NCBI GenBank assembly: GCA_015062445.1
Contig: SUUQ01000001.1
Location: 62,001-126,000 of the forward strand
Length of the DNA stretch: 64,000 bases
DNA from: Alphaproteobacteria bacterium
Lineage (GTDB): Bacteria > Pseudomonadota > Alphaproteobacteria > Rs-D84
Direction of reading: 5' to 3'
A program made the position numbers and the translations under genes. Below, one piece after another: positions 9,237 through 58,684 of this stretch (positions are counted from its first letter, which is position 1; each line of letters opens with the position of its first letter). Under the pieces are notes generated by a model. That model did not search any database. It worked only from the letters and a program-made list of their open reading frames with translations, and was not told the DNA's origin.

Positions 9237-9264
9237 AAAAAGCCGGCAAATGCCGGCATTTTAT
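9236..9264. terminator. Terminator between accC and the HTH gene
   Basis: GCCGGCA AA TGCCGGC stem with T-rich flanks on both sides. Confidence 0.7.
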
Positions 9265-9449
9265 TTCACAAATTCCAGATGATGTTGGGTGGCAATAATG
9301 AACATTATTAACTGGTATATGGTGGGACGCCTGTTACGATAAATCATATGACGATATTCCGATTCTGTTATACCCATGGCATTGCATATGTCAATCACAG
9401 ATAAATTGCGCAGTTCTCGTATCATTTCCAGTTCTTGGCCAATTTTCAT
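9261..9449 (-). CDS. Small helix-turn-helix protein (copy A)
   Basis: 62 residues from the ATG at 9449 (MKIGQELEMIRELRN), preceded by GGGGTGTG. The middle, NLSVIDICNAMGITESEYRHMI, has the layout of an XRE-type helix-turn-helix, so DNA binding is likely but unproven. A paralogue at 17772-17957 shares the MKIG start, E-IR, CN, the E-EY spacing, R-P-T-YQ and IMF. Both lie just downstream of members of the same structured RNA family, on the same strand, past its terminator. This pairing suggests the RNA controls the HTH gene or the two act together. Confidence 0.7.
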   Translation of the reverse strand: MKIGQELEMIRELRNLSVIDICNAMGITESEYRHMIYRNRRPTIYQLIMFIIATQHHLEFVK

Positions 9450-9476: not shown

Positions 9477-9647
9477 AAAAAAAACCACCATAATGGGGTG
9501 GTTGGAGGTTAGAACTTTGCACAGTAGTATGCTCAGCGGTTATTCAATATATTCACCGCCCTCCAACCACAGGTTGGAGCAATTAACGTCTGCGCAGACG
9601 ACTACTGGGCGAGCGTTCTAATCTCGCATAACGGTTTCCCCATTACA
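9477..9647 (-). ncRNA. Structured switch-like RNA, family member A
   Basis: About 171 nt from a sigma70-type promoter to an intrinsic terminator. Predicted order, 5' to 3': P1 (GUAAUGG/CCGUUAU); P2 outer (GAUUAGAAC/GUUCUAACC) and P2 inner (CAGUAGU/ACUACUG), both long-range; P3 (CGUCUGCGCAGACG); P4 (CUCCAACC UGU GGUUGGAG); P5 (GCGGU/ACCGC, 14-nt loop GAAUAUAUUGAAUA); then the terminator AACCACC/GGUGGUU. The 3' strand of P4 (GUGGUUGGAGG) can instead pair perfectly with CCUCCAACCAC, which overlaps the terminator's 5' arm. That is attenuator or riboswitch logic. Not a family I can name. Fold was done by eye. Confidence 0.75.
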
Positions 9648-9653
9648 ATTGGT

Positions 9654-9705
9654 ATTATATCCCATGATAAATATTGTTTGCAATTAAAAATTTCTTTGTT
9701 ATAAT
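9654..9705. promoter_or_regulatory. Divergent promoters sharing one TTGCAA box
   Basis: The palindrome TTGCAA (9678-9683) serves as -35 both ways: rightward to TATAAT at 9700-9705 (16-nt spacer) for tRNA-Val, and leftward to TATAAT at 9659-9654 (18-nt spacer) for RNA A. Confidence 0.6.
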
Positions 9706-9717
9706 CGTTTGCGCAAT

Positions 9718-9794
9718 GGGTGGTTAGCTCAGTTGGTTAGAGCGTTACGTTGACATCGTAAAGGTCGTTGGTTCGAGTCCAATACCACCCACCA
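9718..9794 (+). tRNA. tRNA-Val (GAC)
   Basis: Complete cloverleaf: acceptor GGGTGGT/ACCACCC, anticodon stem TTACG/CGTAA with loop TTGACAT (anticodon GAC), T arm GGTTCGAGTCC, encoded CCA. Confidence 0.97.
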
Positions 9795-17565: not shown

Positions 17566-17592
17566 CCCTATTCCCGCCTGCGCGGGAATGAC
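17566..17592 (-). repeat. Right inverted repeat of the GIY-YIG element
   Basis: Exact reverse complement of the left repeat at 17171-17197. Confidence 0.9.
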
Positions 17593-17690
17593 AAAAGATA
17601 TTGGTGCATAAACAAACCTAAACCCTGCGCGGGAATGACAAAAGATATTGGTGCATAAACAAACCTGAACCCTGCGCGGGAATGATAAAT
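17581..17690 (+). repeat. 47-bp tandem repeat
   Basis: CGCGGGAATGACAAAAGATA units begin at 17581 and 17628, with a partial third at 17675; one base differs between the full copies. Confidence 0.85.
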
Positions 17691-17774: not shown

Positions 17775-17957
17775 TATATCCAACGCACGACATGTATTTA
17801 CAACAAACATTATTTTCTGGTATGTCGTTAAGGGCTTTCGTCCAATTATTATTTGATGATATTCCAATTCTGTTTCAATTGATAAAATATTACACATAAT
17901 AAATATAGGAATATTTTCCGATATGCGTATCTGTTCAATTTGTGCACCAATTTTCAT
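17772..17957 (-). CDS. Small helix-turn-helix protein (copy B)
   Basis: 61 residues from the ATG at 17957 (MKIGAQIEQIRISEN), preceded by GGGGCAAGA. Paralogue of the 9261-9449 protein with shared MKIG, IR, CN, E-EY, R-P-T-YQ-IMF and a final T. The helix-turn-helix is more degraded in appearance than in copy A. It lies directly downstream of RNA B on the same strand. Confidence 0.68.
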   Translation of the reverse strand: MKIGAQIEQIRISENIPIFIMCNILSIETELEYHQIIIGRKPLTTYQKIMFVVNTCRALDI

Positions 17958-17982
17958 TCTTGCCCCACGATATAATATAAAT

Positions 17983-18156
17983 AAAAAACCGCATTTGATT
18001 ATCAAAAGCGGTTGGAGTTCAAACACTATCAAAGCGAATAGCGGGTTTATTCAATATATTCACCACACTCCAACCGCATCATGGTCGGAGTTTTTTACGC
18101 CACCTCTGGCGCGCTTTGAAGGGTGTTTGATACCCGCGCCAGGAATTCCCCAGCGC
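17983..18156 (-). ncRNA. Structured switch-like RNA, family member B
   Basis: About 174 nt. Same order as RNA A with different bases: P1 GCGCUGGGG/UCCUGGCGC; P2 outer UCAAACAC/GUGUUUGA; P2 inner UCAAAGCG/CGCUUUGA; P3 CGCCA GAGG UGGCG; P4 ACUCCGACC/GGUUGGAGU; P5 GGU/ACC with the identical 14-nt loop; terminator AACCGC/GCGGUU. The P4 3' strand GCGGUUGGAGU pairs perfectly with ACUCCAACCGC at the terminator. Stem bases differ from A but pairing is kept in P1, P2, P3 and the antiterminator. This covariation supports a real RNA. Confidence 0.78.
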
Positions 18157-18257: not shown

Positions 18258-18333
18258 GCCGGTGTAGCTCAGCTGGTAGAGCATCTCATTCGTAATGAGG
18301 GGGTCGCAGGTTCAAGTCCTGTCACCGGCACCA
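18258..18333 (+). tRNA. tRNA-Thr (CGT)
   Basis: Acceptor GCCGGTG/CACCGGC, anticodon loop TTCGTAA (CGT), T arm GGTTCAAGTCC, encoded CCA. Confidence 0.96.
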
Positions 18334-22490: not shown

Positions 22491-23705
22491 TTATCGCATT
22501 CGTGGGCCACGCATTGGATTCATCTGCTGGCCGGTGCCGGCGGATGTCATGCCAACCTTGCCAACAATGATTTTATCACCCATTTGTATTTCTTCGGAAA
22601 TAACCTCGGTTTCGGTGGCGGTTGTTAAACCTTTGGAATACGGTACCAAAACAACAACACCATCACGCAACAGCGCCAAATGCGACACAGGGGTTGCACC
22701 GTTTATCTGTTCTGGGGTCAAGAAACGGTCAAAACTGCGTACCAAGAATGCAGAATTTGCCGCACGCCATACGTTTTCTTTTTCAGATATTATAATTGTT
22801 ACAAATGCCGTCATGCCAGGCATCAGACGCAGGTCTGTGTTGTCAACATCAATCACAACAGTATAAACAACAACGTTCGATGTCGTTGTCGGAGATAAAC
22901 GTATTTGACGAACAACACCATCAAATGTTTCGGTCGGATATGCATCAACAGTAAAGGTTACAGGTTGGCCTTCTTGGATGACACCGATGTCTGCCTCGGA
23001 TACGGCGGTTTCAATTTGCATCTTGGTTAAATCTTCGGCAATTTCAAATAAATCTGGTGTTTGAAACGATGCAGCAACCGTTTGACCAACGTCAACCTTG
23101 CGGGAAATAACAGTACCATCAACAGGTGATGTTATTGTGGCATAACCCAAATTTGTTACAGCACGGTCATATGTTGACTGGGCACGTTTGACAGATTGTT
23201 CTGCCTGTTCATACTGGGTCTGGGATTGTTCCATTTCAGCACGGGCAATAAAACCTTCGCTGTATAACATTTTGTTGCGTTCATATTCGTTTTTGGCAAA
23301 GTTGCGCTGGGATATTGCACTGTCTAATGATGCACGTGATTCATCAACAGATGCCTGGAGAACAGATGGTTCAATCGTTAACAAAATGTCGCCTTTTTTT
23401 ACCTTGGAATTAAAATCAACGTACAGATTATCAATCGTACCAGATACCTGGGAACCAACATTGACCGTGTTCACAGGCATTATTTCACCAGTGGCGGTTA
23501 CAACCTGGCGCAGGTCACCACGGGTTATGTTTAATGTGATATATTCTGGGACACCGGCAGTATTTCGTCCAAATATCAACCAGCACCCCGTAAATATACA
23601 CAAAAACAATATTATCCACCACTTTTTACGCCACAATAATCCAAACATGCGGCGAACATGTGATTTTGTTGGAGTGGATAGGTTGGTTTTCTTATTCTGT
23701 TTCAT
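22491..23705 (-). CDS. Periplasmic adaptor (membrane fusion) protein, MacA/HlyD type
   Basis: Bridges an inner-membrane pump and TolC. 404 residues from the ATG at 23705. One membrane segment lies near residues 30-48. It is followed by the first half of a lipoyl domain (GSQVSGTIDNLYVDFNSKVKKGD), a coiled-coil hairpin with many Gln/Ala, the second lipoyl half (ITSPVDGTVISRKVDVGQTV) and a beta-barrel domain. This order fits MacA. The C terminus is Met/Gly rich. Overlaps the tolC-like gene by 14 nt. No MacB-like permease is present next to it. Confidence 0.88.
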   Translation of the reverse strand: MKQNKKTNLSTPTKSHVRRMFGLLWRKKWWIILFLCIFTGCWLIFGRNTAGVPEYITLNITRGDLRQVVTATGEIMPVNTVNVGSQVSGTIDNLYVDFNSKVKKGDILLTIEPSVLQASVDESRASLDSAISQRNFAKNEYERNKMLYSEGFIARAEMEQSQTQYEQAEQSVKRAQSTYDRAVTNLGYATITSPVDGTVISRKVDVGQTVAASFQTPDLFEIAEDLTKMQIETAVSEADIGVIQEGQPVTFTVDAYPTETFDGVVRQIRLSPTTTSNVVVYTVVIDVDNTDLRLMPGMTAFVTIIISEKENVWRAANSAFLVRSFDRFLTPEQINGATPVSHLALLRDGVVVLVPYSKGLTTATETEVISEEIQMGDKIIVGKVGMTSAGTGQQMNPMRGPRMR

Positions 23706-39031: not shown

Positions 39032-39080
39032 ATTGTTTTATTTTTTTATTAAACTTTACCTGGCAAATATATTACAAAAA

Positions 39081-39107
39081 AACACCGGCATTTGCCGGCT
39101 TTTTTTA
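39081..39107. terminator. Terminator between dnaG and ychF
   Basis: GCCGGCAAATGCCGGT-type stem (ACCGGCATTTGCCGG on the plus strand) and T runs. Confidence 0.7.
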
Positions 39108-39121
39108 ACATTTTTACCGTT

Positions 39122-40201
39122 TTATGTGTTAAACAGAAAATGACAAATGTCGCCGGGTTGCATCACATAATCACGACCAACCAGACGCATTTTACCGGCC
39201 TCTTTTACGGCAACTTCGCCGCCCAGAGAAATATAATCTGCGGGGGATATAACCTCGGCACGGATGAATCCACGTTCAAAATCTGTGTGGATTTTGCCCG
39301 CCGCCTGGGGGGCAGTCATACCAACTGTTATTGTCCAGGCATGTGCCTCTTTGGGGCCAATGGTATAATATGTTTGCAGACCCAATGTTTTATAACCAGT
39401 CTTGATAACCTGGTCCAGGCCGGATTCTGTTAACCCCAGGTCGTCCAAAAACATTTTCCGTTCGTCTGGGTCAACAATTTGTGATATTTCCATCTCTATC
39501 TTGGACGAAATAATCAAAACATCATTTGTCGTGCCAAACTTTTCACGAACCTGGTCGGAATATTTATTGCCGGTGGCGGCCGAGCCCTCGTCCACATTAC
39601 AGACATAAATAACAGGTTTGCTTGTTAATAAATTAAATGGCGCAGCATCAACATCACCCAAACGGGCAGGTATTGATTTCTGTAAATTTTCACGAATTGT
39701 ATTCGCATCTGCCAATAATTTTATGGCATCTTTGTCCAGACCACGGGCACGCTTTTCCAGATTTTTTATCTGCTTTTCAATGCTTTCCAGGTCAGCCAGC
39801 ATCAATTCCGTTTCAATCGTTTCAATGTCACCCAATGGGTCGATTTTACCGTGCACATGCACAATGTCATCATTTTCAAAGCAACGTACAACGTGAATTA
39901 TCGCATCAGTTGACAGAATATTGCCCAGGAATTTATTCCCCAGACCTTCGCCCGTTGATGCACCACGGACCAAACCCGCAATGTCCACAATTTCCAATTG
40001 TGTCGGTATAATCTTTTGTGCACCAGAAATCGCAGCCAATTCGTGCAATGTCGCATCAGGTACAACAACACGGCCGGTGTTCGGTTCAATTGTACAAAAT
40101 GGATAGTTCTGTGCGTCGGCCGCCGCACTTTGTGTTAATGCATTAAATAATGTCGATTTGCCAACGTTTGGTAAACCAACAATACCACAGTTGAATCCCA
40201 T
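39122..40201 (-). CDS. ychF: Ribosome-associated ATPase YchF/OLA1
   Basis: Obg-family NTPase that prefers ATP. 359 residues. P loop GLPNVGKSTLFNALT at residue 8; switch region DIAGLVRGASTGEGLGNKFL; C-terminal TGS domain with GPKEAHAWTI and FERGFIRAEVIS. AAGGA precedes the start. The divergent sufBD-like promoter overlaps its 5' end. Confidence 0.96.
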   Translation of the reverse strand: MGFNCGIVGLPNVGKSTLFNALTQSAAADAQNYPFCTIEPNTGRVVVPDATLHELAAISGAQKIIPTQLEIVDIAGLVRGASTGEGLGNKFLGNILSTDAIIHVVRCFENDDIVHVHGKIDPLGDIETIETELMLADLESIEKQIKNLEKRARGLDKDAIKLLADANTIRENLQKSIPARLGDVDAAPFNLLTSKPVIYVCNVDEGSAATGNKYSDQVREKFGTTNDVLIISSKIEMEISQIVDPDERKMFLDDLGLTESGLDQVIKTGYKTLGLQTYYTIGPKEAHAWTITVGMTAPQAAGKIHTDFERGFIRAEVISPADYISLGGEVAVKEAGKMRLVGRDYVMQPGDICHFLFNT

Positions 40202-49048: not shown

Positions 49049-49078
49049 ATTCACAGAATATTCAGAGAGAGAAAATTA

Positions 49079-50347
49079 TTGGCCAGTCAAACTATATCAG
49101 TTAATCGAAAAAAATATGCAGTGGGGTTGTTTTGGCAGCCCATTGCATCTGGTTTTGCTGCACGTAATTATGCACGGGCATTGGCACGTAATATCGATAG
49201 AAAGTTAAACCTGTATACAGAATACAGGGCGATGGTCGGTCTGGGGGCAGGCAGATTCGGACAGCGGTCGGGTATTGTGGCGGCGGCGGCCGAGGTTATG
49301 GAAAGCTTTTCAGAATATACATCTTTCTTGGCGGTGTTTCGGGTGGATAAGGTTTTCTATCTGGTGGCGGCACGTAATGGGGTGATTCTGGCAGACCAGG
49401 TGTTTGAGTCAGAAGATGCAGCACGTAATGAATATGTAAAACTGTCTGAAATCCCAGACTGGGGGGCTTTCTTTGCACCGGGGGAATGGGGAATGCCACG
49501 GGCCGCAGAAAGAAATCTGGCAGATTTGCTGACCGGGCATTCACATGCAACATTGCATGCAATCAGTCGATTTGGGACAGGTATGGTGTCTGTGATTTTA
49601 ATCGGGCTGTTTGTTGTTGGATTGGGGGCGATATTTTGGGATTCTGTGCGGCAGGCATTCAGTCCCAAACCACAAATAAATGAATTGAGTCCAGAACTGG
49701 CGGCGGAATATCATAAAAGAATAGAAGAAAAAAATAAAGAACTGGATGTGCAGTTCGATATAGAAAAAGTCGCACCAGCAGAACCAATCGTGATGCCGTA
49801 TGAATTGTTGCCAGATGTTTCGCAACGTGCAAAATTATGCTATCAGGCGATGGGATTTCTGATGCAGCCAATTCCAGGATGGAACCAAATTTGGGTCGAA
49901 TGTGGCGAAGATGTTGCAACAGTAGAATTAAAACGAAGCTTTGGTACGTTGGGGGATTTTTATGCAGTGGCAACAGAACTGATGCCGGGGGCATTGGTTC
50001 AAGAAATTAATGATGATACACTGCGGATTCAGGCAACGTTGCCGCAGCTGGATGTGGTGGCATCACAAGATGAGCGGGATGTGGACAGTGTCGTGCGTGA
50101 CGTTGTAACAGCATTCCAAGAAATTGATACTGATGTCAGTACAAATGTTGTTTTTGATACACTGACCAATGGGGTGGATGTCGCAAATGTCAACCTGGTC
50201 GAGGTAGAGGTGGAATCAAAACTGGTGCCAATGCAATTGATGCAGATTTTTCAACAAAAAGAATTTGGCGGCGTGTATATGATGCGGTGTGCATGGGATG
50301 TGCGGTCGCGTTCCTGGAACTATGAGGTGATAATCTATGCAAAATAA
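49079..50347 (+). CDS. pilO: Type IVb pilus accessory protein PilO (PilO2 family)
   Basis: 422 residues starting at TTG 49079 after GAGAGAG; the first ATG in this frame is too far upstream and unsupported. The N-terminal actin-like region has the family-typical VNRKKYAVGLFWQP start. One membrane segment lies near 180-200 (SVILIGLFVVGLGAIFW), and a periplasmic domain follows. In plasmid R64-type thin pili this protein links the ATPase to the periplasmic machinery. Overlaps pilP by 11 nt. Confidence 0.8.
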   Translation: MASQTISVNRKKYAVGLFWQPIASGFAARNYARALARNIDRKLNLYTEYRAMVGLGAGRFGQRSGIVAAAAEVMESFSEYTSFLAVFRVDKVFYLVAARNGVILADQVFESEDAARNEYVKLSEIPDWGAFFAPGEWGMPRAAERNLADLLTGHSHATLHAISRFGTGMVSVILIGLFVVGLGAIFWDSVRQAFSPKPQINELSPELAAEYHKRIEEKNKELDVQFDIEKVAPAEPIVMPYELLPDVSQRAKLCYQAMGFLMQPIPGWNQIWVECGEDVATVELKRSFGTLGDFYAVATELMPGALVQEINDDTLRIQATLPQLDVVASQDERDVDSVVRDVVTAFQEIDTDVSTNVVFDTLTNGVDVANVNLVEVEVESKLVPMQLMQIFQQKEFGGVYMMRCAWDVRSRSWNYEVIIYAK

Positions 50348-53743: not shown

Positions 53744-54299
53744 TAAATTATAATAATTCATCTACGAGCGGGGGCGACAACTCATGTAACGTCTTGTACA
53801 CTTCGTTGTCGCCCCCGTCTCGTATCTAAATCATTCTAATTTATTTTACGCATCTGATGTGCTGTGTGCGGGAACGGGCAACTTATGTAACGTTATGTAC
53901 ACTGCGATGCCCGATTTTGTTTTATCTAAATCATTCTAATTTATTTTTTTCTGAGCCAAGTTTTGTAGTTGGGGTTGGGGCAACTCATGTAGCATTTTGT
54001 ACACATCGTTGTCGCCCCCGTCTCGTATCTAAATCATTCTAATTTATTTTACGCACCTGATGTGTTGTGTGTGGGAATGGGCATCTTATGTAACGTTATG
54101 TACACTGCGATGCCCGATTTTGTTTTATCTAAATCATTCTAATTTATTTTACGCACCTAATGTGCTGTGTGTGTGGGGGGCACAATGGATACCGGCCGCC
54201 GCCGGTATGACGATAGTGTGTGTATGGTGCTGCAATGACAAGGGGTGGGGCCCACCCCAGCACCGAGCGCCCCCCTGTCTCGTATCTAAATCATTATTA
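53744..54299 (+). repeat. Tandem array R1 of ~101-nt hairpin units
   Basis: Four clear units (core starts at 53782, 53883, 53984, 54086) and a fifth, altered one. Each has a core TYATGTARC(G)..TGTACAC flanked by arms that pair: CGGGGGCGACAA/TTGTCGCCCCCG, CGGGCA/TGCCCG, GGGGCAAC/GTTG..CCCC and GGGCATC/GATGCCC. A spacer with CTAAATCATTCTAATTTATT follows. Units alternate in type (1 with 3, 2 with 4). The fifth unit keeps GGGGGGC/GCCCCCC arms but contains other hairpins, including a CCGGCCGCCGCCGG palindrome. No gene in this stretch. Confidence 0.85.
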
Positions 54300-57666: not shown

Positions 57667-58337
57667 TGCAATTTTCACGGGATTGGTTTTTTGATTTAGA
57701 CAGGTGTTTGCGTGCGGCGGGGTTAGACAGCGATGTGCAATCGTTTGATGAAATACTGGAAAACCTGCGTGCACGGAAAATTTATGATGCAGATACGTTT
57801 GCAGCACACTGTGTGTATGTAATTCTGGCAGGCGGATTTTCACAAAAAACAGCAAAAGTTAAACACTTGGAAATAATGACCGTTTTGACCGCAGTTGGGG
57901 CAGATTTTGAAATGCTGATTCATTTGTTTAATAACAAAAATAAAATTAATGCGATTTGTAAAATCTGGAATAATCGAAAACAGTTGCGTGATGGGTATTA
58001 TGAACAAATGACGTTGGATGACAGGTTAAAATATCTGGAAAAATTGCCGCATATCGGAAAAATAACTGCAAACCATTTGGCACGAAATCTGGGCGAAGAT
58101 ATTGTAAAGTATGATGTATGGATTCAACGACTGGGGTGTGCGTTTGCAGGTAAAAAATTGGTGGTCGATAATGCAAAATTGTCGCCGGAAATCAAAGATG
58201 CCTGTGATGCGATGTTTGCGCATTTGGTAGGGCAGACAGGTTTACCACGGGGGTATATTGATGTGGTTCTGTGGAAATCTTGTCAGGTAAAATTAATTTC
58301 TATGGACGATTACTTGCACAAACCGCCGGTCATGTAG
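57666..58337 (+). CDS. HhH-GPD-like DNA glycosylase, function uncertain
   Basis: 223 residues. YVILAGGFSQKTAKVKHL and LEKLPHIGKITANHLARNL followed by KYDVWIQRLG fit the helix-hairpin-helix plus Asp arrangement of HhH-GPD glycosylases. The Lys used by bifunctional lyases is replaced (G-K-I-T-A), suggesting a monofunctional enzyme. No Fe-S cluster cysteines. The last 11 residues (MDDYLHKPPVM) are encoded by the first unit of repeat array R2, so the natural C terminus has probably been altered. ung is the next gene, which fits a base-excision pair. Confidence 0.65.
   Translation: MQFSRDWFFDLDRCLRAAGLDSDVQSFDEILENLRARKIYDADTFAAHCVYVILAGGFSQKTAKVKHLEIMTVLTAVGADFEMLIHLFNNKNKINAICKIWNNRKQLRDGYYEQMTLDDRLKYLEKLPHIGKITANHLARNLGEDIVKYDVWIQRLGCAFAGKKLVVDNAKLSPEIKDACDAMFAHLVGQTGLPRGYIDVVLWKSCQVKLISMDDYLHKPPVM
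58265..58276 (+). repeat. 12-bp direct repeat, left copy
   Basis: GGTTCTGTGGAA, repeated exactly at 58648-58659; the two copies bracket array R2. Confidence 0.75.
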
Positions 58338-58647
58338 CGAGTAGTACACTCCCTTTGGTTTGTGCTGCGTACTCGTCTCATATAAATTAATTTTAAAAAA
58401 GTATGGACGATTACTTGCACAAACCGCCGGTCATGTAGCGAGTAGTACACTCCCTTTGGTTTGTGTTGCGTACTCGTCTCATATAAATTAATTTAAAAAA
58501 AGTATGGACGATTACTTGTACAAACCGTCGGTCATGTAGCGAGTAGTACACTCCCTTTGGTTTGCGCTGCGTACTCGTCTCATATAAATTAATTTTAAAA
58601 AATGTATAGACGATTACTTGCACAAACCGTCGGTCATGTAGCGAGTA
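58300..58647 (+). repeat. Tandem array R2 of ~101-nt hairpin units
   Basis: Four units, cores (TCATGTAGCGAG) starting at 58330, 58431, 58532 and 58634, the last truncated. Arms GCACAAACC/GGTTTGTGC enclose the core, which ends GTACACT; then GTACTCGTCTCATATAAATT and a short AT spacer. Period, core motif and the CGTCTCRTAT element match array R1 although the arms differ. Unit 1 begins inside the upstream gene. No gene within. Confidence 0.88.
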
Positions 58648-58684
58648 GGTTCTGTGGAAGGGGGCAGCAGGGGTTAATAAAACT

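Follow-up and report, generated by a model that had tools for sequence, protein, structure and literature searches.

Layout of RNA A and of its second copy

The DNA analysed here is a stretch of 64 kb, which we refer to as the window. On its minus strand, at 9646-9477, lies an RNA (RNA A) in which every element named by a first-pass annotation of the same DNA is present; all RNA A and RNA B elements given below are on this strand. The annotation had assigned RNA A a promoter of its own, and a sigma-70-like, promoter-like site is indeed found, TTGCAA-18-TATAAT (9654-9683, with TATAAT at 9659-9654). The 5' end of the transcript would form a hairpin, P0 (9628-9646, read from the sequence), followed by hairpin P1 (GCGAG..CUCGC, 9609-9627), whose loop UUAGAAC (9621-9615) is an a1-like element and pairs with 9515-9509 to give the helix PK1. 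The 5' strand of P2 (CAGUAGU, 9601-9607), a b1-like element, pairs with the loop of hairpin P6 (9528-9522). There follow hairpin P3 (9587-9600), which is absent from some copies of the leader RNA; strand X (9572-9579, CUCCAACC), the 5' arm of helix P4; and strand X' (9560-9570, GUGGUUGGAGG), which has a GGW motif and is either the 3' arm of P4 or the 5' arm of a closing, or antiterminator, helix X':X2. Hairpin P5 (9536-9559) has the conserved loop GAAUAUAUUGAAUAA, with an AAUA/GAAUAA motif that is also present in the Rfam family RF02221, and P6 (9519-9532) carries in its loop the b'-like antisense element ACUACUG. The 3' strand of PK1 (GUUCUAA, 9509-9515), an a'-like antisense element, adjoins X2 (9498-9508, CCUCCAACCAC), the 3' arm of X':X2, which overlaps the 5' arm of an intrinsic terminator (AACCACC..GGUGGUU UUUUUU, 9477-9503; 7 bp, then a T run).

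A strand with two exclusive pairings, one in P4 and one over 11 bases at the 5' arm of the terminator, had been described, and this is exactly what we find: all 11 bases of X2 are complementary to X', which can alternatively pair with X in P4. The terminator and antiterminator helices are thus mutually exclusive, as in a terminator switch. The branched fold P1-P5 needs amendment; its elements are present, but two of the helices are hairpin-loop pseudoknots, and the P1 and P6 hairpins exist besides the nested fold. RNA A folds better than all 200 of its dinucleotide shuffles (z -4.5). A leader peptide in P5 (GUG AAU AUA UUG AAU) was considered and rejected, because other copies do not keep its frame and have inserted hairpins.

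The ORF 3' of RNA A encodes a small HTH-like protein of 62 aa (9264-9449, minus strand) and starts at 9449, 28 nt past the terminator. Its HTH_3 match is weak (E 0.04), while a profile of 11 relatives of such small ORFs matches PDB 5v5t (E 0.0065); the predicted HTH assignment of the ORFs behind RNA A and its second copy is weak on its own.

This second copy, RNA B (17980-18156), had been said to repeat the whole arrangement with compensating base changes and the same P5 loop, and it does: the P2, P3 and pseudoknot sequences differ from those of RNA A, the P5 loop is identical, and the fold is better than all 200 dinucleotide shuffles (z -6.2). Its elements are a TATAAT box at 18168-18163, P0 at 18136-18156, P1 at 18121-18135, P2 at 18112-18118, P3 at 18098-18111, X at 18090-18083, X' at 18077-18067, P5 at 18064-18044, P6 at 18041-18026, X2 at 18018-18008 and the terminator at 18013-17980. 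The HTH-like ORF of 61 aa behind it (17775-17957, minus strand) is 40% identical to that of RNA A; a search of this ORF for an HTH domain gave no match. The covariance model described below did not recover a third member ("D") claimed for the window; apart from RNA A and RNA B, its one match there, at 39076-39242, is no better than chance (E 1.5).

Both RNAs start back-to-back with a tRNA gene (9718-9791 and 18258-18330, both on the plus strand), which for RNA A is tRNA-Val(gac); MetRS- and IleRS-like genes come after these tRNAs. The same back-to-back arrangement is seen at loci L204 (1283-1358) and L260 (1249-1325), the latter in Enterousia intestinigallinarum and also adjoining tRNA-Val(gac), which suggests that the RNA A locus is conserved between species. 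A T-box was considered given the adjoining tRNA genes, and dropped for lack of an Rfam T-box match.

Conservation of the structure

The proposal that RNA A is a structured leader RNA around an intrinsic terminator is well supported by its relatives. In an alignment of 130 of them, 95.4% of the cells of the named structure are paired, compared to 72.2% in shuffled alignments and 36-46% when the structure is slid by 1-3 columns. A second, mostly model-selected alignment agrees, with 95-96% paired vs 72-73% in shuffles across both sets; this alignment is largely free of the selection bias for GGTTGGAG. The covariation check that the annotation had called for is likewise positive: for 23 column pairs of 129 aligned relatives, the covariation is higher than in any of 20 tree-based null simulations. 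Five of these pairs are in PK1, six in P2, three in P3, four in P5, one each in P6 and X':X2, and two in the terminator; one further contact joins the first base of the P1 loop with the base after P5. PK1 is paired in 97.8% of cells, with two-sided changes at all 6 pairs, and P2, with the P6 loop, in 96.6%, with all 6 pairs covarying. In the pattern-selected set there is little covariation in helix P4, because GGTTGGAG was a fixed part of the scan.

Distribution and copy number

A covariance model (R1) built from 22 seeds was searched against related genomes, as had been recommended, and homologues were found in 176 of the 190 genomes sampled from the order, covering 18 of 22 genera; within the genus, 87 of 96 sampled genomes match. 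Copies of the leader RNA number roughly 10 to 30 per genome, and several genomes carry at least 31 matches to the model. The complete 1.0-Mb genome of Candidatus Enterousia intestinigallinarum (OX097180.1) has 30 copies, and the window's own genome has 13 matches with E below 0.001. Outside the order the leader RNA is sparse, with matches in 10 of 289 sampled genomes of the class, and a sample of 347 further genomes of the phylum gave a single short marginal match. The copies outside the order that were read (L223-L229) keep the architecture with different P4/X2 sequences, such as X' GGCAGGAAG with X2 CUUCCUGCC, or X' GGCGAGAGGU with X2 ACCUCUCGCC. Among named genomes, matches to the sequence pattern fall in proteobacterial metagenome-assembled genomes, mostly labelled Alphaproteobacteria, and the hosts are largely ruminant, bird and apparently termite guts. 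A viral origin of the copies themselves was rejected, as pattern matches occur in three IMG/VR contigs only (L198, L199 and L200, which may be true phages or host fragments).

At several loci (L173, 3937-5044; L182, 1062-1707; L165, 4298-4692; L020, 1263-2563), a single gene is preceded by copies in tandem, ~240 nt apart. Such arrays have 2 to 6 or more units, complete or decayed, and the a1/b1 pairs differ between those units that we looked at.

Position of the leader RNA and the genes behind it

In the pattern-selected copies, a start codon follows within 40 nt of the terminator in 91 of 125 cases and within 60 nt in 97 of 125 (median 26 nt), whereas on the divergent side a start codon at such a distance is seen in 1 of 36; of the 28 exceptions, copies with no near start codon, 14 have another copy behind them in tandem. 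Nearly every copy in the window's own genome and in that of Enterousia lies 3-37 nt before a start codon. Upstream of the RNA, a perfect TATAAT is present in 58% of 227 copies vs 13% in shuffles.

With its own promoter and strong terminator, each copy could in principle be a stand-alone trans-acting sRNA gene whose position before another gene is incidental; sRNA-Xcc1, discussed below, accumulates and maps as an 88-nt RNA (PMC2996969), and the C4-like sRNAs of Acinetobacter are abundant and processed (PMC5320573). However, a stand-alone gene would not account for the short, fixed, same-strand distance to the start codon, which is lacking on the other side, or for the overlap of X2 with the terminator. 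Because of these two features we favor control of the adjacent gene, and regard the stand-alone sRNA as quite unlikely.

As to what these adjacent genes are, 29 of the 42 proteins behind leader RNAs in the window's own and the Enterousia genomes look secreted (including one clearly false call), compared to a baseline of 13 of 57 genes in the window, as judged by a simple, heuristic test for a hydrophobic N-terminus. The other downstream proteins are mostly small HTH proteins, with Pfam also identifying PLD-like nucleases, an outer-membrane barrel and an N6 methylase. Secreted and small HTH proteins thus make up most of the genes preceded by the leader RNA. A small HTH-like gene is found behind RNA A where an HTH gene had been predicted, but it does not define the context of the RNA, since 28 of 42 downstream genes look secreted, and the survey leads us to reject an HTH-specific autoregulation. 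The leader RNA instead appears to be reused across an order of gut bacteria to control secreted and small DNA-binding proteins.

Among the secreted proteins, Enterousia intestinigallinarum has a multi-gene family (...AVTKCV...; L262, L264-L270, L283, L287) in which each copy found has its own leader RNA; the one member tested is without a Pfam match. Secreted proteins of the PLD-like (PLDc_2) type are also recurrent, being found behind the leader RNA at L209, L210 and L177.

Relationship to sRNA-Xcc1 and C4 antisense RNAs

Phages use antisense RNA units of the C4/sRNA-Xcc1 type to silence antirepressor genes, and C4 (phages P1/P7) and CI RNA (phage P4) keep out incoming elements of the same address. 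The annotation had taken RNA A for a new RNA class with no named family. This does not hold, as its 3' half is covered by RF02221 (sRNA-Xcc1) and its layout is also that of the C4 antisense RNAs. At the gathering threshold no Rfam family matches RNA A, and below it only RF02221 recurs in register (26.4 bits for RNA A, against a cut-off of 53); Plastid-ycf2 and other weak Rfam matches were put down to antisense-tRNA or chance. RF02221 matches four RNA A-type loci, all below threshold, in the same register from X' to X2 and including the P5 motif AAUA..GAAUAA. In the genus, it matches 35 of 59 genomes, twice above the cut-off (57.8 and 55.5 bits), and none of 14 control genomes. RF02221 and R1 matches coincide at several loci, among them G004:C11:49088-49161 (R1 49070-49218), G090:C4:23069-23145 (R1 23052-23210) and G000:C4:112335-112429 (R1 112318-112525). 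The RNA A family shares with RF02221 a closing helix around a P5-like hairpin with AAUA/GAAUAA, the P6 hairpin and the single strand.

Reading 30 RF02221 loci from the phylum revealed an upstream half that Rfam does not model. It has a GGG..CCC hairpin, with a loop complementary to the strand that precedes X2, and another strand complementary to the P6 loop. In these loci the upstream complementarity is 14.4 within the own locus vs 11.0 with other loci, and a second, downstream complementarity near the next gene is 11.6 vs 9.6 (0 of 2000 permutations in both cases). The reverse search of the RF02221 loci with model R1 gave no convincing match; the case for homology consequently rests on RF02221 finding the family, together with the shared layout and the permutation tests. 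sRNA-Xcc1 corresponds to the 3' half of the leader RNA's design, aligned from X' to X2. Unlike the leader family, the sRNA-Xcc1 loci have second targets close to where the next gene begins. In these loci X' is preceded by a long spacer containing a terminator-like hairpin (at the site that P3 occupies in the leader RNA), and X2 is usually followed by no clear terminator. They precede genes for SymE, Bro-N, KilA-N, P22_AR_N or Rha; in Xanthomonas integrons, sRNA-Xcc1 has been placed upstream of symE (PMC12444791).

The compact pseudoknotted fold, the strongly conserved P5 loop, a single regulon over many genes, the tandem copies and the terminator/antiterminator overlap are all features one might expect of an OFF-type ligand-binding riboswitch, in which the double pseudoknot and P5 loop would act as aptamer and the ligand would lock P4, letting the terminator form. 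However, RF02221 has the P5 motif as well, and its members, which carry second targets, are antisense-type units of phages; outside P5 there are few invariant unpaired bases; and the downstream genes (secreted proteins, HTH proteins, methyltransferase, capsule-like transferase) suggest no metabolite pathway. No known riboswitch family matches the RNA A-type loci. We thus consider a ligand riboswitch unlikely, and find that antisense-type self-pairing explains more of the evidence.

This self-pairing has a close parallel in C4. In the GenBank record of phage P1, a1, b1, the C4 RNA, a2 and b2 lie in that order before icd; we verified these elements letter by letter, with one mismatch at b1, and C4 folds into a closing helix, a hairpin, a hairpin with the b' loop, and the a' strand. 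The leader RNA has in common with C4 of P1/P7 (RF01695; c4-a1b1 RF03163; clan CL00128) the order a1, b1 and closing-helix unit, the order within that unit (closing helix, hairpin, hairpin with b' loop, a' strand, closing helix), the position before a gene, and a GGW at the start of the RNA. In C4 the GGW motif is the RNase P site (PMC5320573). The GGW at X', present in 236 of 260 copies of the leader RNA, resembles this site. As in C4, the a1/b1 strands of the RNA A family are complementary to a'/b' of the same copy (11.6 vs 7.1; 0 of 1000 permutations). RF01695 recognizes C4 of phage P1 and the immunity region of phage P4, whereas the Rfam C4 models RF01695, RF02944 and RF03163 have no match on the RNA A-type loci; the link between RNA A and C4 would therefore run through RF02221 and the shared layout.

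The leader RNA differs from C4 in being multi-copy and chromosomal, in having its terminator fused to the closing helix, and in being without a2/b2 at the ribosome-binding site: complementarity to the ribosome-binding site of the next gene is 7.42 in the RNA A family vs 7.33 for other loci (181 of 1000 permutations). With the downstream complementarity gone, we suggest that the ribosome-binding-site target was lost and that a terminator overlapping X2 took its place. Antisense repression of translation in trans is not supported for the leader family, because this target of the published C4 mechanism is absent. It also bears on whether the copies could be active immunity units, which exclude incoming phages or mobile elements of the same address and have their downstream genes as mere passengers. 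The homology to phage immunity RNAs, the presence of the element on three viral contigs and a phage-type copy with an antirepressor in the genus would fit such a role, but with a2/b2 gone at the downstream gene, and with downstream genes that are consistently secreted or HTH proteins and not phage genes, we hold it to be very improbable.

The phage-type copy just mentioned is an RF02221 member above the Rfam cut-off (L291, G020:C7:79900-81400), in front of a Rha-like antirepressor gene that has a b-type target close to its start; it is likely a living relative of the ancestor. The same genus has terminator-type copies before capsule-like transferase or secreted proteins (L293, L296-L298; gene names here and at L291 are from translations).

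A proposed self-addressed attenuator

Based on this, we suggest that RNA A, as a 5' leader, governs transcription of the gene behind it by premature termination, and that it is derived from a phage antisense unit of the C4/sRNA-Xcc1 type, a reading drawn from sequence comparison to which we give a probability of about 0.72. A domesticated, self-addressed C4-type attenuator is in our opinion the best reading of the family. As the sequences show, its upstream half has two short targets, a1 in the P1 loop and b1 in P2, and its downstream half two antisense elements, b' in the P6 loop and a' adjoining X2, complementary to b1 and a1 copy by copy. X' has X and X2 as alternative partners, of which X2 usually gives the better pairing; X2 in turn overlaps the 5' arm of a terminator that ends ~20-35 nt upstream of the start codon. 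With a1:a' and b1:b' paired in the nascent transcript, P4 would be kept, X2 would stay free, the terminator would form and the gene would be off. If a second RNA of the same kind, or another factor, prevents this cis pairing of a1/b1, X':X2 could form as in free C4 RNA, the terminator would be lost and the gene would be read.

In 227 copies, X':X2 has a median of 10 bp and -15.5 kcal/mol, vs 8 bp and -10.4 kcal/mol for P4, and is the longer helix in 89%; the terminators have a median of -10.2 kcal/mol, and 93% have a U run. In nested energies, which ignore pseudoknots, the state with P4 plus terminator is favored in 88% of 222 copies, by a median of 12.7 kcal/mol, and this margin is only 2.6 kcal/mol when a1/b1 are blocked; for RNA A itself the two states are equal in the same pseudoknot-blind model. 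The nested-fold energies suggest that cis pairing of a1:a' and b1:b' keeps the leader off by default, and that the leader is released when this pairing is prevented.

Each copy has a private address, because full pairing at both PK1 and P2 is found only between cognate halves (16 of 28 and 9 of 15 in two genomes, counts limited by the alignment) and in none of the 756 and 210 non-cognate combinations. Private addresses are what a trans mechanism needs, although neutral drift of a purely cis pseudoknot would give the same. The product of termination or processing could act in trans, with its own locus as the sole address, and we tentatively speculate that the short RNA of each copy decides in trans, at this locus alone, whether the leader terminates.

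Related systems offer precedents of both signs. CI RNA of the satellite phage P4 brings about premature transcription termination (PMC4825925). It has the order seqA-seqB-seqC, belongs to the same Rfam C4 family and shares with the leader RNA an antisense element with complements on both sides; it acts in trans from the prophage, whereas the leader RNA is one self-contained copy per gene. IsrK of Gifsy-1 (RF01394), a short terminated leader like the RNA described here, competes in trans with its own copy in the long mRNA, which increases readthrough and expression of its own operon and of an antirepressor (PMC4825925). Unlike the leader RNA, IsrK acts through an upstream ORF, and on phages P1 and P4 its model overlaps the a1/b1 half only. 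Many C4-like RNAs on one chromosome, with variable a' regions, are known from Acinetobacter baumannii (Group 1; PMC5320573), but these have been described as sRNAs of unknown targets and not as terminator leaders before secreted-protein genes.

The relationship proposed here connects the orphan sRNA-Xcc1 of integrons and prophages, the C4/CI RNAs of classical phage immunity and a large regulon of host-associated Alphaproteobacteria, and it reveals the missing half of RF02221. The copies are natural sets of tens of sequence-distinct RNA attenuators per genome, and bear on whether phage antisense immunity became a general control of surface proteins. If control in trans were true, a genome of ~1 Mb would have about 30 RNA switches of phage-immunity origin, domesticated, independent of one another and self-addressed, and each surface-protein gene would have private feedback or bistable on/off control.

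Other repeats in the window

Beside RNA B (17577-17670) there is a 47-nt tandem pair of near-identical repeats, and further near-identical units occur at 58301-58648 (~101 nt, in tandem) and at 53778-54150 (a 170-nt pair with a spacing of 203 nt). In addition, closely alike terminators of the GCCGGCATTTGCCGGC type are found at at least 12 intergenic sites of the window, for example at 543-590, 2441-2488, 9238-9267 and 39067-39114.
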